Positions 6,810 through 52,300 of a DNA stretch of 64,000 nt are shown in pieces (position 1 is the stretch's first letter; every line of letters begins with the position of its first letter). The position numbers and the translations under genes are program-made. The stretch comes from Sipunculus nudus (taxonomy: Eukaryota > Annelida > Sipuncula > Golfingiida > Sipunculidae): contig CM049311.1 in the NCBI GenBank assembly GCA_026874595.1, positions 32,135,176 through 32,199,175 of the forward strand. Direction: 5' to 3'. The notes under the pieces were generated by a model that worked only from the letters and a program-made list of their open reading frames with translations, was not told where the DNA came from and ran no database searches.

Positions 6810-9800
6810 ATATATAATGTTCGAGGATTCTACAAAGTCTTAAACTAAGATTGTCGTGCAATGTTTATCTGCTTAAAATTAGCAGGGCAAAGGATATTTA
6901 CTCTTCTTCACAAGTCTAATTGCAGGTTTGTAAAGACTTAATTTAAAAGGTTAATTTATTATAAATATTTACAGAGAAGAATTTTAATGGTGAAACAACT
7001 AAAGTACATTAAGCCTTATTTTGCTATGAAAAGTTTAATTAGTTAAATTTTGAGGGGGGAAATGGTTATATAGTTATATAGGATACAAGTTTACTGGGCC
7101 TTTTTTTCAACAAGGGAAATTTACACCTACCTCACACAATATTTAAGAGACGGAATTATTTTAAAATATGGGAAATCAGTTTATATAGTCCAATATATCA
7201 CCTTCATTTTCGGCGAAGAATACTCACGAGCTAAACAGCCTAAGTTTACAACTGCTGATTCTATAACGTCATGCAACATTTAAAAAAAAAAATGTGACCA
7301 GCTATGTAGATCTACAACAACAGGTGGCTGCTCAATCGAGGTGACCTGTCGGGTTACTGAGAAGAGTCTAAAACTGCAAAAGCAGTGACACAAAAATGAA
7401 GATTTATTTCTTGTCCAATTAGGTTGTCACTTGCATGTCCAGCTATCTAGGAAATTATTGAAAAAAAAAAAATAAACACTTTTGAGAAAATTATGTCAAG
7501 GTGGTCACAGGTTGGTGGAACATGGTTTCCAAGACATGCTTTAAAAGATAACCATAGATCTATACAAGTACTGATAAGGTAGACCTGGAATCGATTCAAT
7601 TGTCGATTCTTAACCTTCGGCTTCGATTCCATTTTCGATTCAGTTATTCCTTAAATGGTAAATTTCAGAAGTTTTTTTTTTAAATAAAGGTAAAATAAAA
7701 AGGCTAATATTTTACCAAATTTAAGAAAAGTAATAGGAAAAATATAGCTCTCAGTCTCATTCTGTTTCACGCCAATTTTGTTTCAATACGATTACGTGTG
7801 GAGCAGTCCATCGGCGAACGTTTAAACTAGATCTGTAGGAGGAACACACGATAAAATTGTGTACTCGGTCATATTTACAGCACGCAGAAGGCTTTTTGGT
7901 GGTAATTGCAAAATTTGTACATTAATTGAAATGAATTAATATTAATATTGGATGCAATATTGACAATGACAATATGTTACACCCCAAATTTTACCAACAT
8001 TTCTGAAGGTTCATTTTTAACACCAGTCTGTGTGTACCGTGCGATGTGTTAGGAGAAAGACAGAGCGCCATGCCCAAAGTACGCTAAACTGAGCAGAAAA
8101 CTAGCTGTGCTGTGGGAATTTTTACTTTTGTTACTGTTACTGTTAGTGTTAGGCATAGTCCCTAGACTAAGTCCTCACCGCCTCAGTTCACCGTTCCGCG
8201 ATCACATGATCAAAGAGAGGACACGTCTCACGGTCTAGATTAATGTAACATATTTCTAGAACATTTCGCTGAAGTTTTACAGCGTAATGTAAAATATTTT
8301 GAAAAAGGTCATGTATATATAATATGTTGTACATTTAATAACCTTACCTGGCCGTTGATTTAGGAAGAATTTACACTTGCTGTCAAGATACACCAAGCAG
8401 AATACGCGAAAGCGCCTAGCCTCGTTGCTGATTGGGGATCTTACCGTAAATTAATGCTTTCTCTCCAGAGAACAGCAGGGCTACACTTCTCACAGAGTAC
8501 TTCTTTACCCTATTTTTTTAACGTGTATTTAGCTGCCAAAATATATTGTAATGAATGCAGGAAGTATCAGCCTATACCAGCCTGGAGGTGAGTAACAGTT
8601 CAAATACATTTAACCAAACTGCATTTTCCGCGGTTAAATACGAAGTCATACGAAAATATCCGAATTTCCAAATTAGCGCGCCATCTGACGGACAGATTTT
8701 CTTTTAATATACATCGATCATCCCGGTAGAGTGCAGCACCAAGCGGACCCGGGGGGGGGGGGGGGGGGCTATTTTTAGTAAAACAAAAACCAACAAACCA
8801 TGGTATTATTCTATAGAAAACAGAATGGAATCAAACGGTTGCGTGGATTAGAGCCCCTCGTACTCTAGTGAAGGTGGGGAGGGAACTTCATATTACACTT
8901 TGGAAAATGAATTCAGTTTGCCAGGTTAAAAGAAATAACGGAATATCAGATCGTATGTGGTTAATATTTTATTCAAAAATAATTACCGGTGTAATAAAAT
9001 ATTTCTTGGGGGGGGGGGGGGGGTACTTTGAACATATGCAATGTTGTATTTAATGTTCAATAATTCGTCTGGGTAGACTATAGGTTGCACTTAACATCTT
9101 TTTATACATATAAAAAGACAAAATCACTTAAACTGTTCTTCAGACAACCTCAAGAAACTTTGAAATAATGCATTTGTTTATCGACTTTTAAATAATCCAA
9201 AAACTACAGAGAAAAACAGCATGTACACTTATAAACACCTGGCAGCTATTGCCTCTGTGAATGGAATGTATTTGGAGGATGACTTCTATGACAGGTGCCA
9301 AAACATGTAGACTTCAAGCATTTAAAAAATAAATAACAAATAAAACATTCCTGGATATGAACAAATTGAGATTTTAAAACATAATACAGTTTACTAACCA
9401 ATTCAATGTTTATTTTCGAACAAATCAATGTTGAGCATTTTAACTACATATTCAACAGTTAGTAACCAAATATCAAACATTTGCAGGGCTTAATGTGAAC
9501 AAATCTTATTTAATAAAATTTAAAACAATACAAAATTCAGTTATCAAAATATTAAAGGCTCCCGAATATGAGAACCTTGTGTTTTTAAAACATATATAGT
9601 CTATTACAGCTCACAAGCTACACAATATAAAATCTAGTTAATATTATTAATAGTGGTTTATAGTCAGATCCACCAAGAAGTGCATGTTTATTTTTATTTT
9701 TACACAAAATCAGTAAATTTAGAAAATAATAACACTTTAACGTAAATTAAACGGGTACTGAATCAGTTATTTAAAAGGAACAACACACCGTACATATTAT

Positions 9801-10200
9801 GAGTAATACGTCTGATTTAGGCCTTATATCAGAGAAATCAGTTTACTTTTTCACAAAATAGTTTACCGATCTGAAGGTTTAGAACACAATGAATGTGACA
9901 GGGTGGGTTAACACGAGTATCAGCTGGGGTAACATTGTGGTTCAGCGACCCTCCTCCGTATATATGTTCAAAGCCCCCTCCCCAGTTTACACTTTTTCTT
10001 TGCAGGCGCGGTCGCACGAGTGTATCGTTGCCCAATGCATAAACGTGTGCTGCAATATGTTCCATGTTTAAACATGTGTGTCTGGGTGTCACTGCTTGCT
10101 CAAGCATATGTATGTAAAACACACAGAGGGCCAGCTTATTCTGCAGAAAGCTTCAGCCCACACCTAATGTAAACTTTTGATGTTCAAATACAAGTGTTCC
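6810..10200. other. No gene recognised; AT-rich with poly-G tracts
   Basis: Short open frames only, with no family signature or convincing exon between splice signals. G homopolymers lie near 8752-8768 and 9008-9022. Confidence 0.6.
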
Positions 10201-13061: not shown

Positions 13062-13155
13062 AGTGATAATGGTGGAAACGCCTGCTGCCTGAACAGACCC
13101 CAGCCCGCCATCAGGGACAGCCCATTGTTCAACGGTACAGTCACTTTTAACTCTC

Positions 13156-13542
13156 GCCGGCTTCTGTGGTTTAGGGGTAGAGCACAACGACTCAAAGCCG
13201 GGAGGTTGTGAGTTTAAATCTCAGCTAAGTACCGGTGATATTTTCACGGTCGCCCTCAATCAGGTTGAGCACTCTGCCCTCTTTATAGGAAGCCGTGTAT
13301 CACACGCGTGCGTCTTTGGGTGGTTCCCCGGTGTTATGACCGAGCAATGGGGCTGATTACACACCCGGACCTGCAGGTGAGGTAGACACTTGGCCTGGGT
13401 GACACGATGATATAAAATGAAATGACAGGAAACGAGTGCTACCGTCTTGTCACGTAGTCCCAAACCGATATGGAACCCTGCAGATGTACAGATAAGTCAG
13501 TATAAAAAAGTATGCACCCGAAAATATGTTAAATAAAAATAT
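13156..13542 (+). mobile_element. tRNA-derived SINE inserted in the pseudogene exon
   Basis: The head resembles a tRNA: an A-box-like TGGTTTAGGGGTAGAGCA is followed about 40 bp later by a B-box-like stretch, GTGAGTTTAAATCTC. The body then includes GGTGTTATGACCGAGCAATG and TTGGCCTGGGTGACAC. Both flanks continue the expansin exon, which gives the boundaries directly. A second family member lies on the minus strand at about 39470-40413. It is probably Pol III-transcribed when young; this copy has no open frame. Confidence 0.82.
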
Positions 13543-14767
13543 CCCCAGAATAAGCCACCTCCTTCAACTGTGGCATATACTACAGGGTAAGCCCAGCCGA
13601 AATTAGCAAAACGCAACAATTAGGAAGTTGTGTATAGGAAAATCTGAACAATGTACATGTAACCATGATGGAGGGATTGAGTTAACCATGAGTGAAAAGC
13701 TGGAAGATTTTAAAACTTGTATAGCTCATATTTAGATTATTCTGTGAGAATTTAGATCGCTTTTAAGAGTAAAAATAGTCGAATATAGACAAAAACAGAT
13801 GCAAAGATATGTCCATATAACTAAATAATATCTCCAACTACATTAAACAGGTTGTTGGATAAGGAAAAGGCAATTAACAGCATTTCTCCAGTCATTGGAG
13901 ATTTCTCCGTCCATGCATGGAATCATCATCTGTCCTGAGCGTCAGGAAGGTAATTCAAATACAATTTCAGCTGACGTAAAAATATGGGTGTAAACCACTT
14001 ATATAATCATCTTTTTAAATAGGGTTATTTGAGATTTTTCAATAGCTAATGCACCCCAACCAGATCGAAAAAATTGTTTGTATGTAACTTTGATTTCGCC
14101 AAGGGAGGTGACGGTGTTTGGGACATCGGCATCCTGCCCGTTAGAGCCCTGTTTGTGATCTGAAGATCAAGCACAAATACAAGGGAACCAACCCTTACTA
14201 AATCAAGATCCTGCAATCAAAAGCGAGACGAAAGACAATATAGTTAAAAATAATAACTTTATCAATGCACAGCTGTTTAATGTGTAGGTTTTACGTCGAA
14301 AATTGCCAGTACAGAACTGCACGATAAATAATAAGTGTTTTAAATATCAACTTTATTGCTCACATCACAAAGATATGAAATAATAGATTATCTTTACACC
14401 AATGAGGGGATAACTGTGCATTTATGAGAGAAAAAAAAACTATCATACCATGATGCATTCTTTACACATCATAATCGGTCACAGGAAATTAACGGGATTT
14501 GTTTCGGGGCTTTACTTGAAAACATGCGATACGCTGATTTATAATACGTAATCTTTTGATCTTACTTTTTAATATTACTTTTTACGTCTTTTTTTTCTTC
14601 TTAGTAAATGCTCTCGTTACATTGAATTTCACCAGACACTGTGCCTCATTTCTCTTCCCACTTGCCTATCAACCGCTTTTAGATTTATGAGAACGCAGCC
14701 TGGCAGGAGGCTAACCGCTCCATGGGCAACTAGCTGTACATGCACAAGAGCCTACCCATCTCTAGCC

Positions 14768-15354
14768 GCGACAGCCCGACTGAGTACGCACTGATATTTG
14801 GGCTGGTTAGTCTACTTGAGTCGTGATACAAGCAATATGGAGCAATGCATTGAAGTGGTCTTCAAAAATGTTGCATTCATATTGTTGTAAACAGCCCATA
14901 ATCTTAACAGCTACGTATGATGAATTAACACAAGAGAATACATGTGAACACACAACCCAAAATGAAACACCGTCTTTATGGTAACGAGTCATTTCCCGTA
15001 TCGCCTACCAGTTGGCTGCATCCAGTAACCCGTGCGTACCATGCTTGTATTCACGAGGTCAGAAATTCATCAAACATGCGGAGGGTTTACCAATATGTTG
15101 AGTTAAAACTAACTTTTAATGCTCATGTTTAGTGTTGTTAAAAAGTATACTAAAAAGCCTAACGATTAGTTTGGTTAATGTCAGTTGAAAGTGTATCTAT
15201 AGCTGCAGGCCATGAGGTGTTGTCAGAAATTACGAAAATGTTTGCATCCTCATTGAGCTTTAAAGTGCATTCCTAACTGAAGGATGTTATGGCACTCAGA
15301 CAGCCAATGAGCTGGTCGTAGACTCTCTGATGTCTGGTGGCCGGAATGGTGCTA
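14768..15354. mobile_element. Unclassified insertion with 14-bp direct repeats
   Basis: It splits the penultimate exon of the expansin pseudogene. ACCCATCTCTAGCC at 14754-14767 and ACCCATCTCCAGCC at 15355-15368 match the exon sequence once in the intact gene, so they read as a target-site duplication. A 14-bp duplication fits insertion by target-primed reverse transcription. No coding sequence was recognised inside. Confidence 0.6.
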
Positions 15355-15611
15355 ACCCATCTCCAGCCCTCTCAACATCCGCTACGGAAGTACTGTCAAT
15401 GTGCTCGAGGACACTGTCGTAAAGCGTAAGCTTAACTATGTATGTATTCATTTTATTTGTCATTTTCTTCATTATAAGCCACCCATAAGTTTGTTTCCTG
15501 TTTATCATATCATCTCTGAACAAATGAATTTACGAATGTTTGGTTCCGAGCAGGTACAGATTAGACACCAAATAAGTCTTTTTACTTCTAAATGTTTATT
15601 GCAGCAAAAAT

Positions 15612-16717: not shown

Positions 16718-18263
16718 CTACATGCTGAGGGCATGACAAGTGCCCTTATCAAGGCCCACCAAAGCAGGAATGACAGCACCGCCATCGGATACCCCGGATT
16801 CTGCACCAGATGGCGGGGTGTCAGGCATATCCAGTTCGTGACAGATACCATCGTAAGAGACTGGGCCGTGGCCGGTTTCCTCTGGTACTGTGTCGTCACA
16901 TTTGGCAGTGGCAAATCCTGTTGGTCTTTCCATTCCAGAGAAGGTACCTTGGAAGTTGATGTTTATGTGAGCTCCTGCATTATAATGCCAGCCCATTCTG
17001 ATATCAAAGGAGGTACCTGTGTCTCCAGATAGATTTTCGGAACCATATGGCTGTTGGAATAAATAAAAAAAACTGACATCTGCATCTACTTGTGGTAGCT
17101 CTCTTTGACCATTAATGAAATGGCACTGGCGTAACATTTAGCACAAGACTATTAAGATTAAAATGCTATTTACTTTTTTGCGGAAGATATATCAAAATCT
17201 CATTAAACATCAATTACATTTATCGACAGGTGCATACCGAAAATGTTTACACAGAAAAAGCATTTACTTATCCCAATAAAAAAGGAGCAGTGCACGTTAT
17301 TCTAGCAGTCAGTACCTTCAAACAATAAGTTTTATACAGTACCACTTTAATAAAATAAAAATAACCGAGACAATGTGTATGTAAACCCTCACCGTAAAGT
17401 CGACGATTTCCTTGCACAGTGTCAGAGTGACGATGGCCTTGTCAGGGCAGTCTGGCGCCTGAAGGTTGAACCGACCTTCAAACCTGTTCTTGTTGTTACC
17501 GATACCCCAGGAGTGGTACACGTCCACGGAACTATCCAGCTGTTGACAACTTCCAAATCCACCAATTACACCATTAGCATTGGCCCCGGATTCTCCGCCA
17601 GTTGTTGCACTTGGCTCAACACATTTCTCCACAAAGGTTCCTGTTGGCCTGCCTCCTGTGGTCTGTCCCTGGATCTTGTAAGTCTTGGTGGATGTACCGG
17701 GGTTCCACTTGAGTTTCAAAACATATACTGTGTCTCCTTCCATCTTGTTAACCACATCCAAATCCCATTCCTGTATTACATAATGAATGAAATGACCTGT
17801 CCTCTTTAACTATTGTTGCGCTAAATTAATGAAACTAAGTATTTTGGAATAATAAGAACATCAAAATATCACTGTTAATTACATAAATGAAAAAGTTTAT
17901 AAAAGAAAATCAAATATTAAGAGCCATCCTTAGAGACTCACAGCATTACAATATGTTACCTTTTTATCACCCAGTGTTAAATCAGAACATTGTGAGTGGT
18001 TACCTTGTGACAGAAATACAAATGATATTTCTAAATCTCGGTATTGCTACAGCAGAGAAGGTCAGACCTACCTGGAAATTGGTGACAGCCCGGTCAAATG
18101 TAAGAATTGAGCGGTAGTTTTCCCAGTCACAATCGAACGACAAATCAATGTTGCCTTCGAATGTGGTCTGTTCATTTGACCCCCAACTGGTGAAGACATC
18201 GACATTTTTCTCGGCAGCTCCAGTAACAGCCAGAACAGCAAAGAACAGTGTTGCAGGTATCAT
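16718..18263 (-). CDS. Secreted protein with two CBM2-like cellulose-binding domains
   Basis: Three minus-strand exons, 18072-18263, 17393-17770 and 16718-17050, join in phase 0 to give 300 residues. Residues 1-17 form a signal peptide (MIPATLFFAVLAVTGAA). Domain A (about 20-103) shows VDVFTSWG, FEGNIDL, W47, LTFDRAV, EWDLDVV, KWNPG and YKIQGQ. This is the order of aromatic strands seen in family 2 carbohydrate-binding modules, including those on molluscan GH9 cellulases. Domain B (about 145-230) repeats the pattern (VDVYHSWG, FEGRFNL, VTLTLCK, MGWHYNAG, INFQGTF) with a tryptophan missing where A has W66. A Gly/Ser/Thr linker and a Cys-containing tail follow each domain. No catalytic domain is present. 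The donors are CAG/GTAGGT and ACG/GTGAGG. The start is fixed by an acceptor immediately before A-ATG. Its role, binding or loosening cellulose or chitin in the gut lumen, is inferred. Confidence 0.85.
17771..18071 (-). other. Intron 1 of the CBM2 coding region
   Basis: Bounded by CAG/GTAGGT and TAATACAG/GAATGG. Its removal joins TNFQ to EWDLDVV inside domain A. Confidence 0.8.
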
Positions 18264-19098
18264 TCTGAAACTAAAAGAAACCACGTGTCTTATTATGTAA
18301 GGTTGAAACGCCATAGACACTGTGCGACTTTCACTTTGAAATAAGAAAACAATATGGGTGATGGATATGCATATTAAAACACTCTGTTGCCTGAGAAACA
18401 TTCCAGGACGTAAGCCAGGGAATGCACGAATCAAAGCCAAAAGAAATATGTATCCAGTTTCATCCGATCGTTAGTTGCATCGCATTTCAGTTTTTTTTTT
18501 TGTGTCTGCCGCTACAAAAGCAGCTACAATGTGTTGACAAAAGCATGTATGGAAGGCGGTGGGAAATTTGAATCTGAGTTTCTCTAATACTACTTAATCA
18601 CGACTCTTCCCGTTGCCCATCTCATGATAGTAATAGATCCTTTGTACAAAAATATATTCATGTGATAATGGACAAATAATCAGTGTGCTGATTTGAAAGG
18701 ATCAGTCGCACGGAGTATTATTCAACAGGTACGAGAAAAAATAAACCCAAAATTAGATGGATGAAACTGTAGCACCAAATGTAAATGAGAAGGGAGCAGT
18801 AACAAACTGTAAACACTAAGCTTGTGAATTATCTATTCCCATGTATTCCGATTCTATCTCTGCAACAGCCCGCTGAAGATGATTTTCGAGAGGAAACACG
18901 ACCTAAGTAGACTTAAGGATATGGCGAATCTATATTTACACATCTGGAAATATGCATTTTCAACATCACATTTATCCTACCCTTAAGCCAAGAAAGTATA
19001 ATGTTACTGCAAGTTAATGATTAATCACGATAAAACGTCAGATAAAATATAAGAGGAGGAAGAGATTGCTGAGGAATTACGGAATACGAATACGTTAC

Positions 19099-19175
19099 CT
19101 CTCACAGGTACCTGGTCTTCTCGGATGAACCTTGAGGGGTGCCCGGGCTTCCCTTTCATAGAGTTCTACTGAAGC
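19099..19175 (-). other. Putative noncoding first exon of the CBM2 gene
   Basis: The CBM2 start codon is preceded by an acceptor (TTTCAG/AATG at 18264), so a noncoding exon must lie upstream. On the minus strand a donor GAGAG/GTAACG falls at 19099/19098, and a TATA-like ATATTTATTG sits near 19193-19202. The right boundary is a guess. Confidence 0.35.
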
Positions 19176-19179
19176 CCTC

Positions 19180-19709
19180 CGAAAAGTCCAGTCAATAAAT
19201 ATCATGTGGTCGATAGTGAGCAGATGAATTCCGGGCCCAACACCTGTTCGTCTGATTGCTAGTTAATAATTATAAATCTATTCAATTATCACGTTCTGAT
19301 ATACGTCATTAAGTGCCCATCTATGTGTAGACAATTGAAAACGTGTCAGCCACTCACAGTCAAGCATATGGCTGTCTTTGATTATTACAGGTGAATCAGG
19401 GCAAGTTCTTATTATAACTTATTCGCAGTAACAAAAAGGTGCGGTTATTGCACGTCTCAATAAATAGAGTGTGATCTGTGTTTAATATACATGAAGCTAA
19501 ACATGTTTAATTGGAAACACGGGCCAGTGGTCCATGACACTCAGTAGCTCTGTATTTAATATATTAGTAATTATTAAATGAGTGCCTGCGTCGTTGTTTA
19601 ATCAGATGATAGAGAGAGTTAGGTTTGACACGTAAGACCACCTGGACAAACATGGCCGGGAAAGGACTGTCGAGTGTATATAAGGCAGTTCCGACTGAAG
19701 GTTGACATC
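19180..19709. promoter_or_regulatory. Candidate divergent promoter between the CBM2 and expansin genes
   Basis: About 0.5 kb separates the probable start sites of two oppositely oriented genes for secreted wall-active proteins. Head-to-head placement makes shared enhancers plausible. Individual factor sites cannot be named with confidence. Confidence 0.4.
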
Positions 19710-19714
19710 AGTCC
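19677..19714 (+). promoter_or_regulatory. TATA box and initiator of the expansin gene
   Basis: TATATAAG at 19677-19684 lies 33 to 26 bp upstream of the A in an initiator-like TCAGTCC (19708-19714), textbook spacing. A short 5' leader exon then runs to the donor GAG/GTAGGT at 19735. The intron ends at CATTCAG (19946), 13 bp before the ATG. Confidence 0.75.
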
Positions 19715-19959
19715 AGTTCTTCTGATCCGAGCGAGGTAGGTGGAGAGAGAGAGAGCATGAACATGAAGCATTTAACTTTCACTGTATAGTTATAGTTATG
19801 ATTCTGAGTGTGGACAATTTTAGTAGATTTTACAAGATAAATAAAGTTCTTGTGTATGCTCATCGAGGTCAGCAGTGACTTTGAGTTCTAAGACCACAAA
19901 TTATAATAAACAGGTATTTCATGTTCTCTCGTTTTCTGTCATTCAGATTATCCTTCAAG

Positions 19960-21945
19960 ATGCTGAGCGCTATTTGTTTGACATTGCTGGTGGGGGTCGC
20001 CCTTGGTGACAATTCTAAACGTGTTTGTACGGTCTTTGGCACCTCGATGCACGGTCATGTAAGTAATATTCATGAAGTTCATTGAGTTAAGGAAATACTA
20101 AAAATTCGACATTCTTAACCTTTTAGGCTTATTTTGATATACAGCTATCATTATATCATTAAATATACTGATATCATTCCCGTTTTCTGATTTATGTTGT
20201 ATAATGTGAAGAATAAAACTGTTAGCCTTACCTGCATAGTTAATGGCAAACATTTCTTAAGACATGAATCTGCAAAAAACAAAATCGTATAACTTTTGTA
20301 CATTCCATACAAGGGTACGTACTACGGTGAGGGTGCTGATAGTGGTAACGCCTGCGGCCTGAACAGACCCCAGCCCGCCATCAGGGACAGCCCCGTGTTC
20401 AACGGTACAGTCGCCATCAACTCTCCAGACTACGCCGCCTCCTTTGGGTGTGGAATGTGTTACAGGGTAGGAAAAGGAAGTTAAATACATGGCATCTTAA
20501 AATGTCAATTCTGTCCTCCTAAATGCAGCATTTCCCCGATAAATGATGTTTACACTTAGGACCAGTAAATTAGATTACAGGACATTTTTATGAGACTATG
20601 CAGTTAACTTCTCACTCAGAATTTTTACATACCAAAAATGATACCATAACTTTTGCTCATTTACATTCATAAACAGTTTACCTGCTTACATTTACCCACG
20701 CAATAACGTAATGACCGAGTGATCTGTAGATCCTGTTTCCTTTTTACAGGTCGTCGGAAAAGGAAAGGGTAACGGTATCTCCCCAATCATGGGAGACTTC
20801 TACGTTTACGGAAACAACATTTGTCCCGAGTGCCAGGAAGGTAATGCTTACATCTCATCTAACGTGATCACTTATAACATTTAAGATTCGGGTTTTAATC
20901 TTTGTAATTCTGTATTGTATTAACTTCAAAGGAGCAAAATGATTCTTGAAAACTAAAAATCAATAAAACATTGTCCGTTATAAATGTATTGTATGATTCA
21001 AATTCCCCCCTTACATTTCTTGTTTGCAGGTAGCCTTGACTTCGCCAAGGGAGGTGACGGTGTTTGGGATATTGACATTCAGCCGGTACAGTGCCCTGTC
21101 GGTGATCTGAAGATTAAGTACAAATACGAGGGAACCAACCCTTATTATATCAAGATCCAGACCAGAAACGAGCGGTAAGAGGCCTAACATTTCCCTTTAT
21201 CATTTCTATAATGTTGTCAGTTATAGAATTACTCGCCAGATAGCATGAAACTGCACCATGACATGTGCATTGCGCGTGTCAGTCATGTCCACTATTTTGG
21301 ACTAATGAGGGCGCCGTTTTTTTTAGATTTAAGACATACACAATTAATGCCCCGTTATTGATATTCCAGGCTTTTTTCCCCATTTATCATTTGAAGTACA
21401 CCAAAATATATTCTTTTCCTATTGGTTTAATTAACACGAATATTTATTTGGTCATTTATCGTCGACAGATCTCGGTAGTGTAAGTTTAAGTATAGAACCA
21501 TATGTTTGCTGGTAAATTTTTTGTGTAATGTTAAATATAAAAAATCATATGAAAAGATTTTACTTATATCCCTATTCTTCCACAGCGTGCCCATCAACCG
21601 TTTCCAGATTTATGAGAACGGAGCCTGGCAGAAGGCTGACCGCTCCATGGGCTACTGGCTGTACATGCCCAAGAGCCCACCTATCTCAAGCCCTCTCAAG
21701 GTCCGCTACGGCAGTTCTGTCAACGGCCAGGTACTCGAGGACACTGTCGAAATGCGTAAGTATAGATGTGTCTTTGTCAACTTTCATGCGATCATATCAA
21801 TACAACACATGTTTATTTTTCAAGTTCGTTTGACATCGCGTAAGTAATTGGAAACCTATTTTTTTTTATTCCAGTACCTGCTGGAGAGACTGATGGAACT
21901 GGTGTCCAGTTTACCAAGGACGATGGCCTACCATCTGCCGAATAA
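19960..21945 (+). CDS. Secreted expansin-like protein (double-psi beta-barrel plus expansin C-domain)
   Basis: Expansins loosen cellulose networks without hydrolysis. Six coding exons (19960-20058, 20314-20466, 20750-20840, 21030-21174, 21586-21755, 21875-21945) join cleanly into 242 residues; all introns are GT-AG, in phases 0, 0, 1, 2, 1. Residues 1-16 are a signal peptide. Residues about 34-137 form the barrel domain, with GTYYGEG, ACGL, CGMCYRV, ICPEC and GSLDFA. Residues about 140-235 match the C-domain, with QTRNERVPINRF, a YENGAW motif, LKVRYG, VLEDTVEM and a final VQF. Compared with bacterial EXLX1 as I know it, T35 and D118 stand where Thr12 and the essential Asp82 lie, Asp71 is replaced by N107, and the aromatic platform is Y153-Y154 with Y186 or W187. 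Six mature cysteines lie in or near the barrel, plus C23. A decayed copy lies 6 kb upstream. An old transfer from a microbe is likely, given family distribution. Confidence 0.93.
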
Positions 21946-37300: not shown

Positions 37301-40300
37301 TCCGCCTGCGACAGATGCTGTTAACAGCTTATAATAAAATGCTGGGGCGGTTTGAAGAACACATGAGAACTCAGAGGGAAAACAGAACAGAATCAGGATG
37401 GAACTTCTTTAACTATTTTATACTCCAGGTAAATATATGCAGCCATTCAATTTTTTTTTGTCTGAAGGTATATTTTAATATTTGAAATGATATGATTTCA
37501 AATTTTCAGAATTTGTATTGAAGTGGTATTGGTATGAATGGCATCCTTTGTGTGTGTTTTCTGCAGGGGGTATCACAGAGGATTAGTTTTTAATGAGAAC
37601 TTCAAAACATTAAGTAGCATGACAATTTTTCCAGGTAGTTTCAGAGGATGTGTTTATATATCAATGCACAATTAAAATAAAGGAGACGTGTTATCATAAC
37701 CTAAAATAGTTTTAAAGATGTATGGAATTAAATTTGGATAAAATATTCTAGTCTTATAATATATGATTATATAAAGTGCTTCATGATGAAATAATAAAAA
37801 TCCTCAGTGTATAAAGTAGGATTACTTAAATACTAATTTATCTATCATATCAAGAACGTATTTGTAATTAACCTGTGTCAAGTGAAAGTTATTGTTTCCA
37901 CTCAATTCTGTGTGTGTGTCTGCAAGATACCTGAAGAACCATTTCAAGGATGTAAGTGAAATTTATCATATTATGATATAGGTTTGCATTGTAAATCCAA
38001 GTGTAAATAACCCCAGATTGAGTGTTTTATGGGTTTTTTATAGACCATATATTAACATTATGACATAGCATGTGATGTTATGGACATCCATGGAGTGCAA
38101 GTCATGATGTCCCAGAGAACAATGATGTCACTCCATGTGCTGTTTCCCTGAAAGATGTCAGTAAACCAACGTACATCAATGGGGGGGGGGCATGGTTGTT
38201 GTTTTCTTGTTTATAGTCCGAGACAGCAATACCATGATGTCCATGGTGTTTTTCAAAATATTTTCAATTATAAAGTTCCCAGGTATAACACAGGTTTAAT
38301 TAGCATTTCATGGCACCAACTTTGAACACTATCTTTCACCACAGGGTTTGCGTCCAGATACTGGACACTGTTTCAATAACATGAATTAATCCCCACAGGA
38401 GGAGCTTGCCTTCATGTTTGAGATGCTGGGATTGTTTGAGGATGCCATGGTACAGTATGATGAACTGGATGCCCTCTTTACCCAGTTTGTCCTGAACCAT
38501 GCTGCTGGTGGTAAGTACAACAATAGACCTTGTCCTCCACACTAGCGACATCTGTTGGTGACAGTTGACACTAACAGTTCAGGTCCAGTATGTCAACAGA
38601 AAGGAGACTGTTTGCGCTTTCTCAATTGATGAAAGTTATAGAATTCTGTCTCATTGATAGAGGTTATGTTTATGTTCATGTCTATGGCATGTATCTGCTT
38701 TCATTAAACGAAACCTGCAATGCTGGTTCAGTGTATAACTGCTGCATAAGGAGTTTACAGGTCTTTGGAGACCCCCTTTCTGTTTGAAGTAAGCATCCTC
38801 TGCATGTTCTGGTCATGTGTGATCAACATAAAGTACTGCTCAAAATGAATAATGATTTTGTTTAAAAACAGTATTATGTTGGATTAATGTTACAAAATTA
38901 CATAGGTATCACACTGGTTTCATATCAGTGGATAGCTAGCAAAGGCTTTCATGAACTTCAGATGTGAAGTTTCTGTTTGACATGGATGATTGGACTGGTT
39001 GCAGGGGTGCAGCCAGGACTGGGGGAAGGGGGTGGGCCGAAATATTTGACAAAGGCAGTTGATGCATATATATTATGTGGATACAAGTGACAGGAATTTT
39101 TATAATTTTGTTTTAGAAAATTTAATCATTATAAGTTTGAACAGTTTATAATAAGAGATTCATTGCGACTGGGACTTCTTCATACTTACCACATATTTTT
39201 TTTATCAGTGTCTAAACAGACAATCTTCTGTTGTGGTATCCAAAAGTTAAGTTGCTTGTATAGTTTCAATACTTAGTGAAAGAAGATAAATACAAAATAT
39301 TTGTGGATTATGTTACAGTTGTTAAAAATGAAGGTAAGTGCCTATTTTTGAAGGTTAGTTCATATTTTTTTAAAATAAATTTTTGGTGGAGGTGATTGCC
39401 TCCATTCTTTTCTGCTTACTTAACTAACCTTACCATGTATGTAAATCTGCAAAATTCTGTTTCAGTTTGAGACTGTGACAGGGCAATAGAACATGCTATG
39501 CTTCCCCCTATTTATACCCTAGTGTCACCCAGGCCAAGTAACTAATGTACCTGCAACTCAAGGCCTTGGTGTGTAATCAAACCCATTGCTAGGTCATAAG
39601 GTCATAACACCATGGACCCCCCCCCCCCCCCCCACCCTTTCAAGTTGGCACTTGTGAATGACGCAAGACTATAGGACACAGCCTTCCCCTTGGCACTTGT
39701 GAATGAGGCAAGACTATGGGGGACAGCCTTCTCCTTGGCACTTGTGAATGACACATACTGTTGGGCACAGCCTCCCCCTTGGCATCTGTGAATGATGCAA
39801 GGCTATGGGGCACAGCCTTCCCCTTGGCATCTGTGAATGACACAAGGCTATGGGGCACAGCCTTCCCCTTGGCATCTGTGAATGACGCAAGGCTATGGGG
39901 CACAGCCTTCCCCTTGGCATCTGTGAATGATGCAAGGCTATGGGGCACAGCCTTCCCCTTGGCATCTGTGAATGACGCAAGGCTATGGAGCACAGCCTTC
40001 CCCTTGGCATCTGTGAATGACGCAAGGCTATGGGGCACAGCCTTCCCATTGGCACTTGTAAATGATGCAAGGCTATGGGGCACAGCCTTCCCGTTGGCAC
40101 TTGTAAATGACGCTAGGCTATAGGGCACAGCCTTCCCGATGGCGCTTGTGAATGACACAAGGCTATGAGGCACAGCCTTCCTGTTGGCACTTGTGAATGA
40201 CACAAGGCTATGGGGCACAACCTTCCCAATGGCACTTGTGAATGACGCAAGACTATGGGGCACAGCATTTCCTTTTTACCTGCAATGCACTGACACTGGA

Positions 40301-43300: not shown

Positions 43301-46300
43301 TTTAGTGAACTCTTGTTTTCGTTAATCATAAATAAACAATTCCTCAGTTACAGTCATTTGAATACATTACCCATTCCTGGCTAAGTTAACATAAATGCCT
43401 CTGTCACAAGCACAATATTTGATTAGCCTTGCGTTGGTTTGTTTTGTATGATTTCCATGGAAAAGGAAATTCTGGTGTTGCTAAAGGCCTACTCTGAATT
43501 TATTGGTAATATCATAAACATATATTCATTATCACTTCCTTTTTTAAATATGACGTATGTTTACATTGATTATGTCCACATACCAGTTAAATGTTATTTC
43601 TGAAAACATGATTTTATTTCTGCCTTAATTTAGGCATAACCTACGGGCCAGAATAAACATTATAATTAATGTCTTGCGTGATCCCAACCTTAATATGGGA
43701 TTGTCTGTATCGCACTGCAAGTACCCCCAGAACAGTCAGAAGTTAGGAGAATATTTCGACCAGTTCATTTTAAGTGGGGGTGGCAAGATGCCAGTATATG
43801 GGTAAGGCTACTGAAAATGACCCCAGGCCCTTATAAATTGTCCTCAACCTTTAATTCCAACAGTTTTCAATCCAGCTGGAAAAATCCTACATGATGATAT
43901 GTAATTTTGTATGTGGAAAAATTATTTGTTCATCTGCTAAGGCAAAGAATAATAAGGAAAACAGTGATTTTACCTATCACTGGATGTCCCCATTTGAGGG
44001 TATAATGTTTCCATGTGATCTACAGTACAGGTACATATTTAATTTTACTGATCATTTATTTCTAGATATAATAATTAAAGAAACCCATCAGAGTATTTTA
44101 CAGAATTAGTAATTTAGTCAAATTTACACAATTGCCATCGGCATATTATATGAAAAAATGTCCAAAAATAAACATTTTTTTACGAAATCCAATGTTTTCT
44201 TGTGAATTTTGAAATTTTGAAACAAAACACGGTTTCAGCTGGCTAAATTAGTGTGCAAAATGAAATTTTAAACAAAAGCCAAATCTGGAGTGGCTTAACA
44301 TTGAGCCTTTACTGCAGATTGGCTATTGCATATATTTTAATATTTTTATGATACCGTTTTTTGACCTGGGTAGACAAGAGAGTTGATTTAAAGTCTTAAA
44401 AATTATCAAATATATGTCATGTGTTGTGTGGATCCACTTCCATTCTGATCACTGGCTGGGGCCATTTTCAGTGGCCTAGCTGGCCCATATATATACAGGT
44501 TTCACGGACTCATGAACACGTAGATTGGCAAAGAAATTTTCGCAATCTTTTGTGTAAAGGTGACAAGTAAAGTTGCTTTTATTTTTTTTTTACAAATTTG
44601 AACAGATTCACATCGGCTGTAGATATAAAACTTGATACATCCGCCGCATATCTATATATTTATGCAGTTGAACAGCATTAATTAAACTGTGAATTGGTTA
44701 AAATAAAGCCCGGCATCCTCTTTCTGTATAAACCAACGAAACGTGTTTCACCATATCCTGTTCATCAAACTTTACTAGGAGGAAATTTTCCATAAAACAA
44801 TGGGTGAAGATGCATCAACCCAATTTTATACACTGTCACAATGACAGGAAAAGTATTGGCGATGTATAAATGAATGATCAAATGTCATAGGACAATGTTT
44901 CGGGGCTACCTCCATGTCCCTTGCATCCACCCAGCAATTGATCACTCAAGCTGGCAGCACTGACAATGCCATTGAAGCTCAGAGCATAGCTGCCTCTATG
45001 ATGGTTCTGCCAATGACGACGACTACGACGACAGTGCTGGCCTCTTGGAGTAGTTTGTGGCGGCAGCACTGCCGACGACGACAGTCACAGCAAAGCTGCC
45101 TCCCTGGTGGTTCTGCCAATGACGACAACGATGACGACGACAGTGCTGGCCTCTTGGAGTAGTTTGTGGCGGCAGCACTGCCGACGACGACAGTCACAGC
45201 AAAGCTGCCTCCCTGATGGTTCTGCCAATGATAACGACGACGACGACAGTGCTGGCCTCTTGGAGTAGTTTGTGGCGGCAGCACTGCGGACGACGACAGT
45301 CACAGCAAAGCTGCCTCCCTGATGGTTCTGCCAATGACAACGATGACGACAGTGCTGGCCTCTTGGAGTAGTTTGTGGCGGCAGCACTGCCGACGACGAC
45401 AGTCACAGCAAAGCTGCCTCCCTGATGGTTCTGCCAATGACGACGACGACAGTGCTGGCCTCTTGGAGTAGTTTGTGGCGGCAGCACTGCCGACGACGAC
45501 AGTCACAGCAAAGCTGCCTCCCTGATGGTTCTGCCAAAGACGACGATGACAACGACGACAGTGCTGGCCTCTTGGAGAAGTTTGTGGCGGCAGCACTGCC
45601 GACGACGACAGTCACAGCAAAGCTGCCTCCCTGATGGTTCTGCCAATGACGACGACCACGACGACAGTGCTGGCCTCTTGGAGTAGTTTGTGGCGGCATC
45701 ACTGCCGACGACGACAGTCACAGCAAAGCTGTCTCCCTGATGGTTCTGCCAATGACGACGACGACGACGACGACAGTGCTGGCCTCTTGGAGTAGTTTGT
45801 GGCGGCAGCACTGCCGACGACGACAGTCACAGCAAAGCTGCCTCCCTGATGGTTCTGCCAATAAGCTGCCTCCCTGATGGTTCTGCCAATGACGACGACG
45901 ACGACGACGACAGTGCTGGCCTCTTGGAATGGTGTGTGGCGGCAGCACTGCCGACGACGACAGTCACAGCAAAGCTGCCTCCCTGATGGTTCTGCCAATG
46001 ACGACGACGACGACGACGACGACAGTGCTGGCCTCTTGGAGTAGTTTGTGGCGGCAGCACTGCCGACGACCACAGTCACAGCAAAGCTGCCTCCCTGATG
46101 GTTCTGCCAATGACGACGACTACGACGACAGTGCTGGCCTCTTGGAGTAGTTTGTGGCGGCAGCACTGCCGACGACGACAGTCACAGCAAAGCTGCCTCC
46201 CTGATGGTTCTGCCAATGACAACGACGACGACGACAGTGCTGGCCTCTTGGAGTAGGTTGTGGCGGCAGCACTGCGGACGACGACAGTCACAGCAAAGCT

Positions 46301-49300
46301 GCCTCCCTGATGGTTCTGCCAATAAGCTGCCTCCCTGATGGTTCTGCCAATGACGACGACGACGACGACAGTGCTGGCCTCTTGGAGTAGTTTGTGGCGG
46401 CAGCACTGCCGACGACGACAGTCACAGCAAGGCTGCCTCCCTGATGGTTCTGCCAATGACGACGACCACGACGACGACAGTGCTGGCCTCTTGGAGTAGT
46501 TTGTGGCGGCAGCACTGCCGACGACGACAGTCACAGCAAAGCTGCCTCCCTGATGGTTCTGCCAATGACGACGACCACGACGACAGTGCTGGCCTCTTGG
46601 AGTAGTTTGTGGCGGCATCACTGCCGACGACGACAGTCACAGCAAAGCTGTCTCCCTGATGGTTCTGCCAATGACGACGACGACGACGACGACAGTGCTG
46701 GCCTCTTGGAGTAGTTTGTGGCGGCAGCACTGCCGACGACGACAGTCACAGCAAAGCTGCCTCCCTGATGGTTCTGCCAATAAGCTGCCTCCCTGATGGT
46801 TCTGCCAATGACGACGACGACGACGACAGTGCTGGCCTCTTGGAGTAGTTTGTGGCGGCAGCACTGCCGACGACGACAGTCACAGCAAAGCTGCCTCCCT
46901 GATGGTTCTGCCAATGACGACGATGACGACAGTGTTGGCCTCTTGGAGTAGTTTGTGGCAGCAGCACTGCCGAAGACGACAGTCACAGAAAAGCTGTCTC
47001 CCTGATGGTTCTGCCAATGACGACAACGACGACAGTGCTGGCCTCTTGGAGTAGTTTGTGGCGGCAGCACTGCCGACGACGACAGTCACAGCAAAGCTGC
47101 CTCCCTGTGGCTTCTGCCAGTGACAAAGACAACGACAGTGCTGGCCTCTCAGAGTAGTTTGTGGGGCCAGCACTGATGAAGACGACAGTTTGTGGTAGCA
47201 GCACTGATGACTACAACAGTCACAGCAAAGCTCCTTCCCTGTTGCTTCTGCCAATGACGACAATGACAGTGCTGGCCTCTTGGAGTAGTTTGTTGTAGTA
47301 GCACTGCCGACGACAACAGTCAGAGTAAAGCTCCCTCCCTGTAGCTTCTGCCAATGATGATGACAGTGCTTGTTTGTAGGATATGTTTGTGGCAGCAGCA
47401 CTAACACAGATGACAACGACAGCAAAACTGTAGCTTTCTACCTGTCGTGCCCACCAACCACGCTGCCAACAATATTGTCCGCATGGAGTAGTTTATGGAG
47501 GCATCACTGCAAACGAGGAGAGTTGTGGTGGCAGCACTGACTTTGATGACAGTCAGATTGAGTAAAGCTCCCTCCTTGCAGCTTCTGCCAATGACAATGA
47601 CAACGACAGTGCTTGTTACTTTGAGATGTTTGTAATGGCAGCACTAATAAAGACGACGATGACAGAAAGACCTGCGACACTATTGTAGCTTATTAACTGT
47701 CGCACTGGCACATAGTCACTGTGGCAGTATTGTAGCTTATTTATTGTGGCACACTGTCCCAGAGTTAGGATATCTACTGTGGTGTGTACTGTTGTACATT
47801 CTCACTCGGACAGTTTTGTAGCTTATTGATTGTCACACATTGTCACTGCGACAGATTGTAGCTTATTAATTGTCACACATGATCACTGCGACAGTATTGT
47901 AGCTTATTATATGTCACATATAGTCACTGTGACAGTATCATAGCTGTAGTCCCTGCTACAGTATTGTAGCTTATTAATTGTCTCACATTGTCACTGCGAC
48001 ATTATTATAGCTTATTAATTGTCGCATATAGTGACTGCGAAAGTATTGTGGCTTATTAATTTTCGCAAAAAGTCAATGCGACAGTATTGTAGCTTATTAG
48101 TTGATGCACATTGTCACTGTGACAGTATGATAGCTTATTATTTCTTGCATTGAGAAACAGGGATAGTATTATAGCTTATTACTTGTCACGTTTAGTCACT
48201 GTGACAGTATTGTAGTTCATAAATTCTCGCACATTAATTGTCACACGTTATGGCAGAAGTAGGATATTCACTAGGCAATGTGTCACAAACTGTCTCACGT
48301 GTCACTGCGACAGTATTATAGCTTATATAGTCACATATAGTCCCTGCAACAGTATTGTAGCTTATTAATTGTCTCACACTGTCATTGTGACAGTTTTATA
48401 GCTTATTGAATGTCGCATATAGTCCCTGCAACAGTATTGTAGCTTATTAATTCTCGCACATTAATTGTCACACATTATGGCAGAAGTAGGATATTCACTA
48501 GGCAATATGTGTCACAAACTGTCTCACATGTCACTGCGGCAGTATTGTAGCATATTTATTGTCACAAATTGACACTGCAGCAGTATTGTAGCTTATTAAT
48601 TGATGAATATAGTCACTGTGACAGTGCAACAGCTTATTAATTGTTGCATATAGTAACTGCATGTGACAGTATTGTAGCTTATTACTTGTCCCACATTGTC
48701 ACTAAGACAGTATTGTAGTTTATCAGCTGTCACGCATAGTCTCTGCAACATTATTATAGCTTATTAATTGTTGCATGTAGTCACTGTGACAGTATTGTAG
48801 CTCGTTAATTCTCGCACATTAATTAATTGTCACACATTATGGCAGAAGTAGGATATTCACAAGGCAATGTGTCACAAACTGTCTCAAGTGTCACTGAAAC
48901 AGTATTATAGCTTATTAATTGTCACCTATAGTGACTGCAACAGTATTGTGGCTTATTAATTGACGGATAAAGTCACTAGACAGCATTGTAGCTTATTAAT
49001 TGACACACATTGTCACTGTGACAGTATAATACTTATTAATTGTTGCATTTAGTAACTGCGACAGTATAGTAGCTTATCACTCGTCCCATAGTCACTGCGA
49101 CATTATTATAGCCTATTAATTGTCACATTAAGTCACTAGTGTAACAGTATTGTAGCTCATTAATCCTCGCATATTAATTGTCACACATTATGGCAGAAGT
49201 AGAATATTCACTAGGCAATGTGTCACAAACTGTCTCACGTGTCACTGAAACAGTATTGTACCTTATTAACTGTTGCACATGGTCACTGCCACAGTATTGT

Positions 49301-52300
49301 AGCTTATTGATTGTCACACATTGTCACTGCGACAGATTGTAGCTTATTAATTGTCACATATAGTCACTGTGACAGTATTATAGCTATTTGAATGTTGCAT
49401 TGATCCCTGCTACAGTATTTTTAGCTTATTAATTCTCACATTGTCACTGTGGCAGTATTATAGCTTATTAATTGTCGCATATAGTTGCGACACTATTGTG
49501 GCTTATTAATTGTCGGATAAAGTCACTGCGACAGTATTGTAGCTTATCACTCGTCCCATAGTCACCGCGACATTATTATAGCCTATTAATTGTCACATTA
49601 AGTCACTAGTGTAACAGTATTGTAGCTCATTAATTTTCGCACATTAATTGTCACACATTATGGCAGAAGTAGAATATTCACTAGGCAATGTGTCACAAAC
49701 TGTCTCACGTGTCACTGAAACAGTATTGTACATGGCCACTGCCACAGTATTGTAGCTTATTAATTGTCTCACACTGTCAATGGGACAGTATTATAGCTTA
49801 TTAATTGATGCTTATAGTGACAGCGACAGTGTTTCAGCTTATTAATTGTCGCATAAAGTCACTGCGACAGTATTGTAGCTTATCAATTGTCATACATTGT
49901 TACTGTGACAGGATAAAAGCTTATCAATTGTTGCATATAGTAACTGCAACAGGCTTGTAACTAATTAATTGTCGCACATTGTCACTGAGGGAGTTTTTTA
50001 GCATATTAATTGTCGCACATTGTCACTGAGACAGTGTTGTAGCTTATTAATTGTCTCACATTGTCACCGAGACAGTATGATAGCTTATTATTTGTCACAT
50101 ATAGTGACTGCGACAGTATTATAGCTGATTAATTGTCGCCTATAGTCACTGCGACAATATTGTAACTTATTACTTGTCTCATTTTGTCACTGACAGTATT
50201 GTTGCTTATTACTTGTTGCACATAGTCCCTGTGACATTATTATAGCCTATTAATTGTCACATTAAGTCACTAGTGTAACAGTATTGTAGCTCATTAATTT
50301 TCGCACATTAATTGTCACACATTATGGCAGAAGTAGAATATTCACTAGGCAATGTGTCACAAACTGTCTGACGTGTCGACAGCACTGTCGTCGTCGTCGT
50401 CGTCATTGGCAGAACCATCAGGGAGGCAGCTTTGCTGTGACTGTCGTCGTCGGCAGTGCTGCCGCCACAAACTACTCCAAGAGGCCAGCACTGTCGTCGT
50501 CGTCGTCGTCATTGGCAGAACCATCAGGGAGTAAGCTTTGCTGTGACTGTCGTCGTCGGCAGTGCTGCCGCCACAAACTACTCCAAGAGGCCAGCACTGT
50601 CGTCGTCGTCGTCGTCATTGGCAGAACCAAGAGGGAGACAGCTTTGCTGTGACTGTCGTCGTCGGCAGTGCTGCCGCTACAAACTACTCCAAGAAGCCAG
50701 CACTGTCGTCGTCGTCGTCGTCGTCATTGGCAGAACCATCAGGGAGTAAGCTTTGCTGTGACTGTCGTCGTCTGCAGTGCTGCCGCCACAAACTACTCCA
50801 AGAGGCCAGCACTGTCGTCGTTGTCGTCGTCATTGGTAGAACCATCAGGGAGTAAGCTTTGCTGTGACTGTCGTCGTCGGCAGTGCTGCCGCCACAAACT
50901 ACTCCAAGAGGCCAGCACTGTCGTCGTCGTCATTGGGAGAACCATCAGGGAGGCAGCTTTGCTGTGACTGTCGTCGTCGGCGGTGCTGCCGCCACAAACT
51001 ACTCCAAGAGGCCAGCACTGTCGTCGTCATCGTTGTCATTGGCAGAACCATCAGGGAGGCAGCTTATTGGCAGAACCATCAGGGAGGCAGCTTTGCTGTG
51101 ACTGTCGTCGTCGGCAGTGATGCCGCCACAAACTACTCCAAGAGGCCAGCACTGTCGTCGTCGTCGTCGTCGTCATTGGCAGAACCATCAGGGAGTAAGC
51201 TTTGCTGTGACTGTCGTCGTCGGCAGTGCTGCCGCCAGAAACTACTCCAAGAAGCCAGCACTGTCGTCGTCGTCGTCATTGGCAGAACCATCAGGGAGTA
51301 AGCTTTGCTGTGACTGTCGTTGTCGGTAGTGCTGCCGCTACAAACTACTCCAAGAAGCCAGCACTGTCGTCGTCGTAGTCATTGGCAGAACCAACATGGA
51401 GGCAGCTTTGCTGTGACTGTCGTCGTCGGCAGTGCTGCCGCCACAAACTACTCCAAGAGGCCAGCACTGTCGTCGTCGTCGTCATTGGCAGAACCATCAG
51501 GGAGTAAGCTTTGCTGTGACTGTCGTCGTCGGCAGTGCTGCCGCCACAAACTACTCCAAGAAGCCAGCACTGTCGTCGTCATCGTCGTCATTGGCAGAAC
51601 CAACAGGGAGGCAGCTTTGCTGTGACTGTCGTCGTCGGCAGTGCTGCTGCCACAAACTACTCCAAGAGGCCAGCACTGTCGTCGTCGTCGTCATTGGCAG
51701 AACCATCAGGGAGGCAGCTTTGCTGTGCCTGTCGTCGTCGGCAGTGCTGCCGCCACAAACTACTCCAAGAGGCCAGCACTGTCGTCGTCGTGGTCGTCGT
51801 CATTGGCGGAACCATCAGGGAGGCAGCTTTGCTGTGACTGTCGTCGTCGGCAGTGCTGCCGCCATAAACTACTCCAAGAGGCCAGCACTGTCGTCGTCGT
51901 CGTCGTCATTGGCAGGACCAACAGGGAGGCAGCTTTGCTGTGACTGTCGTCGTCGGCAGTGCTGCCGCCACAAACTACTCCCAGAAGCCAGCACTGTCGT
52001 CGTCGTCGTCGTCATTGGCAGAACCATCAGGCAGTAAGCTTTGCTCTGACTGTCGTCGTCGGCAGTGCTGCCGCCACAAACTACTCCAAGAGGCCAGCAC
52101 TGTTGTCGTCATCGTCATTGGCAGAACCATCAGGGAGTAAGCTTTGCTGTGACTGTCGTCGGCAGTGCTGCCGCCACAAACTACTCCAAGAAGCCAGCAC
52201 TGTCGTCGTCGTCGTCGTCATTGGCAGAACCAACAGGGCGGCAGCTTTGCTGTGACTGTCGTCGTCGGCAGTGCTGCCGCCACAAACTACTCCAAGAGGC

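Follow-up and report, generated by a model that had tools for sequence, protein, structure and literature searches.

A head-to-head pair of an expansin homologue and a double-repeat protein gene, recurring along a chromosome of Sipunculus nudus

Can an animal genome hold an expansin gene and the gene of a fibre-binding partner as a single unit? Expansins of plants and microbes are cell-wall-loosening proteins. Passages from two articles describe animal-encoded expansins mainly from plant-parasitic nematodes (PMC11800479, PMC5093861). The question is raised here by a stretch of 64,000 nucleotides from the annelid Sipunculus nudus (assembly GCA_026874595.1, contig CM049311.1; the whole stretch is hereafter the window), in which an expansin-like gene and a gene for a protein with two internal repeats are transcribed away from each other. 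A preliminary description had noted this linkage and read the second product as a double CBM2 protein. New here is the recurrence of the divergent pair on the same chromosome.

A divergent pair and its copies

Within its 88.9-Mb contig the window spans 32.135-32.199 Mb; the assembly totals 1,426,538,692 bases (1.43 Gb) in 153 contigs. Models read from the sequence gave clean splicing for both genes, with GT-AG at every internal splice site, and both predicted proteins carry a hydrophobic N-terminal leader, judged by eye without a signal-peptide program. As modelled, both genes are intact and of secreted type, and the preliminary description of two intact, intron-bearing genes for secreted proteins holds at the following coordinates (aa, amino acids).

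19960..21945, plus strand: coding part of the expansin-like gene, 6 exons (19960-20058, 20314-20466, 20750-20840, 21030-21174, 21586-21755, 21875-21945), 242 aa
16718..18263, minus strand: coding part of the double-repeat secreted-protein gene, 3 exons (18263-18072, 17770-17393, 17050-16718), 300 aa

A genome search with the expansin returned at least 19 exon matches, 18 of them within ~115 kb on the window's contig and one on contig C3. This search scored the best candidates only; copies were mapped by open reading frames (ORFs) read by eye, four exact motif searches and tblastn.

~32.042-32.050 Mb: copy A, divergent, both genes intact
32.054-32.059 Mb: copy B, divergent, both genes broken
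near 32.065 Mb: copy D, a broken double-repeat gene alone
32.069-32.079 Mb: copy C, divergent, genes ~7.6 kb apart and both broken, the expansin reduced to exon 1
13063..15454 of the window, plus strand: decayed expansin with stops, found by tblastn and blastn to the intact gene

The expansin of copy A has the same six-exon structure as that of the window, and its double-repeat gene is likewise intact. Orientation is divergent in all four places where both genes can be detected. Moreover, two of these four pairs (window and copy A) have both genes intact and the other two (copies B and C) have both broken. The orphan copies number two, copy D and the decayed expansin, beside which no double-repeat partner was found within the window. 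No further copy was found by tblastn between copy C and the window, nor within 10 kb past each end. Bacterial contamination is rejected because both genes contain spliceosomal introns, the contig measures 88.9 Mb and a second pair with the same introns lies ~90 kb distant.

Two side observations were made during this mapping. On another chromosome there is a diverged expansin-like stretch (C3:89074820-89075176) with 38% identity and an in-frame stop at its end. Amid the broken pair copies, C6:32060331-32061857 is an uninterrupted, intronless ORF of 508 aa that is cytochrome P450-like by eye.

Comparison of the window with copy A gave closely similar synonymous divergence (dS) for the two genes. 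The expansins are identical at 235 of 242 residues, with a non-synonymous divergence (dN) of 0.014, a dS of 0.323 (bootstrap interval 0.229-0.437) and a dN/dS of 0.042 (97.5% limit 0.083). The double-repeat proteins are identical at 259 of 300 residues, with dN 0.066, dS 0.325 (0.232-0.420) and dN/dS 0.203 (limit 0.297). Judged from these ratios, each gene is under purifying selection. Equal dS in both genes is compatible with one duplication of the whole unit, and together with dN/dS far below 1 it excludes chance ORFs as an explanation for the two genes.

The shared region and the rest of the window

The DNA between the two genes holds the following features, of which the non-coding first exons, and with them the start sites, are inferred.

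18264..19959, no strand: region between the two start codons; its counterpart in copy A aligns with it throughout apart from a single large gap, with identity in 1197 of 1675 aligned columns
19676..19685, plus strand: TATA-like box of the expansin gene, GTATATAAGG, identical in copy A
19152..19163, minus strand: TATA-like box of the double-repeat gene, CTCTATGAAAGG, which reads CTGTATAAAAGG in copy A
19706..19735, plus strand: putative first exon of the expansin gene, non-coding and with an approximate start; its splice donor follows 19735 and the acceptor precedes 19947
19099..19127, minus strand: putative first exon of the double-repeat gene, non-coding and with an approximate start; its splice donor follows 19099 and the acceptor precedes 18264
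18983..19404, no strand: constrained block between the start sites and around that of the double-repeat gene, core 19194-19299

The TATA-like boxes are 513 bp apart in the window and 912 bp apart in copy A, and the donor and acceptor motifs of both putative first exons are present in both. The earlier estimate, ~0.5 kb from one probable start site to the other, agrees with this spacing in the window, and the two genes, divergent with inferred start sites less than 1 kb apart, are arranged like a bidirectional promoter pair.

As a whole, the intergenic DNA is at the neutral level, with 71.5% identity between window and copy A versus 73.7% expected from dS. The block at 18983-19404 shows 71 differences in 419 aligned columns (83.1% identity; P 3.6e-6 against the neutral expectation from dS) and its core is 87.7% identical (P 3.4e-4), these P values being optimistic because the block was picked after viewing the identity profile. 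Against copy B, a 114-column core stretch is 80.7% (92/114) identical in the window and 88.6% in copy A. Taken together, the divergent arrangement of all four pairs, the equal dS, the purifying selection and the constrained block make the pair look like an inherited, selected unit. The view that the two genes belong together is thereby better supported than in the preliminary description.

Elsewhere, the window carries a 106-bp minisatellite of ~85 copies at 50380-59370, whose G+C of 0.51-0.58 stands out from ~0.36 in the flanking DNA; the unit recurs in reverse orientation as another array at 44979-47189. At 39645-40266, 13.8 copies of a 45-bp unit stand in tandem, and more than one reading frame is open across them. 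Rfam gave no matches on the window.

The right-hand protein, an expansin homologue

The protein predicted from the right-hand gene is homologous to expansins over its full length, in both domains. The NCBIfam profile EXLX1 (NF041144) matches residues 32-232 with E=1.4e-18 over profile positions 1-193 of 194, and thus covers both domains. Among solved sequences there were seven matches at E<=0.01, six of them named expansin, EXLX1, cellulose-binding or peptidoglycan-binding (E 3.5e-7 to 7.5e-6) and the seventh a maize-type beta-expansin 1a (E=0.0062). A tblastn search of plasmid records matched 17, all from Clavibacter, with 98-100% of the query covered. The claim of an animal expansin-like gene is therefore borne out by homology across both domains. 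The score of 66.9 bits lies below the curated NCBIfam cut-off of 100, and Pfam gave no family at E<=1 on the 242-aa protein, although the identical search recovers both expansin domains in Clavibacter CelA; we therefore label the protein an expansin homologue and not a certified member of the family.

Its closest known likeness is to the EXLX1-type microbial expansins (BsEXLX1, 2bh0; Clavibacter, 4jcw and 4js7), with which it shares two full-length domains and the catalytic-site aspartate. Identity to three expansin sequences is 28-31%, and E values to the EXLX1-type structures are 3.5e-7 to 6.7e-7. Residue D118, invariant in a four-row alignment, aligns with D82 of BsEXLX1, which we take to be the catalytic-site aspartate. 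The columns of W125, W126 and Y157, presumably the three aromatics of the BsEXLX1 binding face, hold Y153, Y154 and Y186, all aromatic, both Trp having been replaced by Tyr. Unlike the EXLX1-type proteins, the animal protein also has a 9-residue insertion, an acidic tail and six coding exons.

In a tree of 31 bacterial and two animal sequences the animal branch is 2.82 long and the nearest bacterial row stands at a path length of 3.83, so a recent transfer from one of the sampled bacteria is not supported. The tree is midpoint-rooted, has long branches and is made up of bacterial rows and these two animal rows, without plant, fungal or other animal sequences; it therefore speaks only against recent transfer from these 31 bacteria. 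A scan of viral contigs with the Clavibacter expansin domain gave no confirmed relatives.

Two of the solved relatives, 9ms4 and 9ms5, are named peptidoglycan-binding, and bacterial expansins have also been described as such. This would fit an antimicrobial role, as an immune or egg-protecting secretion. The pointer consists of molecule names alone, whereas the double-repeat protein offers nothing that points to peptidoglycan, and we consider this role very improbable.

The left-hand protein and a candidate fibre-loosening unit

The tandem repetition within the predicted left-hand protein is genuine, with repeats as follows.

aa 18-114 and 143-241 of the 300-aa protein, minus strand: two repeats, matched to each other

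Repeat matches repeat with 92% profile probability (E 6.1e-7). Moreover, a phase-0 intron interrupts each at the identical alignment column, which implies that an intron-bearing module was duplicated.

The reading that we favour, and to which we would give even chances, is that the pair forms a two-gene unit, duplicated whole, in which a secreted expansin and a secreted, remotely CBM2-like double-repeat protein would serve co-regulated fibre loosening. Most likely the two proteins would be expressed and secreted together and would act, without catalysis of their own, on beta-1,4-glycan fibres. The shared region would co-regulate both genes; the expansin would dock on the fibres via its C-terminal domain, and its barrel would loosen non-covalent contacts without hydrolysis. 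The double-repeat protein may bind the same fibres and help to hold them open, and opened fibres would give access to glycoside hydrolases.

Several results weigh against this reading. Pfam gave no family at E<=1 on the whole 300-aa protein, and no CBM_2 even at E<=10 on any of the four single repeats of the window and copy A, which supplied two each. Profile-profile comparison with CBM2 reached a probability of 0.2% for the intact repeats and 3.5% (P 0.012) for an eight-row profile that includes four rows pieced from broken copies. The Trp-Trp pair of the expansin binding face is Tyr-Tyr here. Equal dS could alternatively have come from gene conversion, and the bootstrap intervals are wide. 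Lastly, the part of the promoter region next to the expansin is, at 68.4% identity, not above neutral, so that it may be the double-repeat gene alone that the constrained block serves.

The claim of a double CBM2 protein was thus not confirmed, since it lacks a Pfam match and its profile probability of 0.2-3.5% compares with 96.0-99.5% for all 8 known CBM2 sequences in leave-one-out controls. The motif reading does not count as proof, given the absence of Pfam CBM_2 and the 0.2% comparison. Of the significant CBM2 or expansin profile match that had been set beforehand as the test, the expansin half was found and the CBM2 half was not. Nor did other searches supply a relative: NCBIfam and the Protein Data Bank (PDB) gave no match for the repeats, a PDB profile search with the four repeats gave a best E of 0.1 with no CBM2 among 9, tblastn of plasmid records with repeat 1 gave one match only (E=7), and the viral-contig scan with the double-repeat protein gave no confirmed relatives. 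The predicted fold of the middle exon alone was uninformative (pLDDT 31.9).

What remains is a weak in-register likeness. The eight-row profile aligns with CBM2 in register across 76 columns, and none of 60 column shuffles did as well. Of 32 pairwise comparisons, that of repeat 1 with the Cellulomonas fimi CBM2 (1exg) ranked first; with three matrices, 0, 4 and 17 of 3000 shuffles were as good for this pair, selected as the best of 32, and 221, 1695 and 7 for repeat 2 with 1exg. The surface aromatics of CBM2, which we take to be W17, W54 and W72, have W27, W66 and W86 of repeat 1 and W152, Y192 and W211 of repeat 2 in their columns, in alignments that are themselves below significance. At 9570-9845 of locus L018, repeat 2 of the broken copy C reads 'FQAWSADL' in place of the 'FTPYGSEN' of the intact copies and thus places a Trp in alignment with W54. 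Like CBM2 domains (PF00553; 1exg, 3ndy, 2rtt), the repeats are ~97-99 aa long and show an in-register W/F-x-N-x/W/WN pattern, but they lack a profile-level match and the structural Trp of the strand 'gWtl' is replaced. The best lead is a distant relationship to CBM2, which these comparisons do not establish.

The same results allow the expansin to be real and the left-hand protein to be unrelated to CBM2, the two being neighbours by accident and copied together since segmental duplications exceed one gene. This is what the missing database matches and the low CBM2 probability would lead one to expect; tandem duplication by itself carries neighbours along, and the intergenic DNA is overall at neutral identity. 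Against it stand the shuffles of repeat 1 (although those of repeat 2 are weaker and 1exg was the best of 32), the register kept by the eight-row profile, the shared condition of the partners in all four pairs and the constrained block between the start sites. On balance we regard an accident of neighbourhood as quite unlikely.

If the pair is instead the fibre-loosening unit that we favour, it would achieve in trans what bacteria and nematodes have in their CBM2-expansin fusions. In Clavibacter CelA, Pfam recovers Cellulase, CBM_2, DPBB_1 and Expansin_C in one protein (GH5, CBM2 and expansin), so that there too an expansin is paired with a carbohydrate-binding module; CelA, however, is one polypeptide with a cellulase, whereas here there are two divergent genes, no catalytic domain and a second protein that is not proven to be CBM2. 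When 31 bacterial expansin loci were scanned with a purpose-built CBM2 profile, one had a fused CBM2 (L037), one had a CBM2 in another ORF of its 8.4-kb locus (L035) and in 29 none was found. The fused case, from Xylophilus ampelinus (L037 3884-5011), carries its CBM2 C-terminal to the expansin, in the reverse order to CelA.

Among animals, passages on the nematode proteins Gr-EXP1 and HaEXPB2 describe CBM2-expansin fusions in which the carbohydrate-binding domain is required for cellulose binding (PMC5093861). These, too, are animal-encoded secreted expansins used with a CBM2-type module. By that description, and not by sequence, they differ in being single fused genes and effectors of parasitism, whereas here the expansin and its unproven module are encoded separately. 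The expansin-related EG45 protein of whitefly, as portrayed in part of one article, is likewise a secreted barrel protein encoded by an animal gene, but it has the barrel only and is of plant origin (PMC11800479); the Sipunculus protein has both domains and resembles microbial expansins more closely than plant beta-expansin. Passages of an Aplysia digestive-fluid study that sought cellulose-binding proteins discuss plant and microbial expansins and name no animal expansin (PMC6226162). CBM2 modules are described in a genome study of a land snail (PMC10295696), and a mosquito paper mentions expansin (PMC4786938). Among the open-access matches listed, titles and abstract openings gave no expansin in a mollusc genome and no divergent expansin/CBM pair, subscription papers being outside this scope.

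Cellulose, perhaps that of the food, is our best guess for the target fibre, with chitin a serious rival. The same co-regulated pair could act on a structural glycan, chitin or another, that belongs to the animal itself or to its prey, as in cuticle, radula, or egg or shell matrix. CBM2-type structures include 2rtt, a chitinase domain (ChiC); loosenin-like proteins reportedly act on networks of chitin as well as of cellulose (PMC9888185); and an invertebrate chitin-binding domain is described in a transcript of a sea anemone that bears the annotation Expansin-YoaJ (PMC6626399). The closest solved relatives, however, are named cellulose-binding proteins or expansins, and the fusions characterised in the passages cited act on plant walls (PMC5093861). 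We therefore think a chitin-type target unlikely, if worth serious attention.

More broadly, we tentatively propose, while thinking it somewhat doubtful, an animal two-component, non-hydrolytic fibre-loosening system, in which an expansin and double fibre-binding modules of a new animal family would form one divergent unit that duplicates, survives and decays together. A clear test is possible, since the ligand of the partner and its tissue of expression are measurable. If the proposal is true, some animals would own fibre-loosening machinery besides hydrolases.

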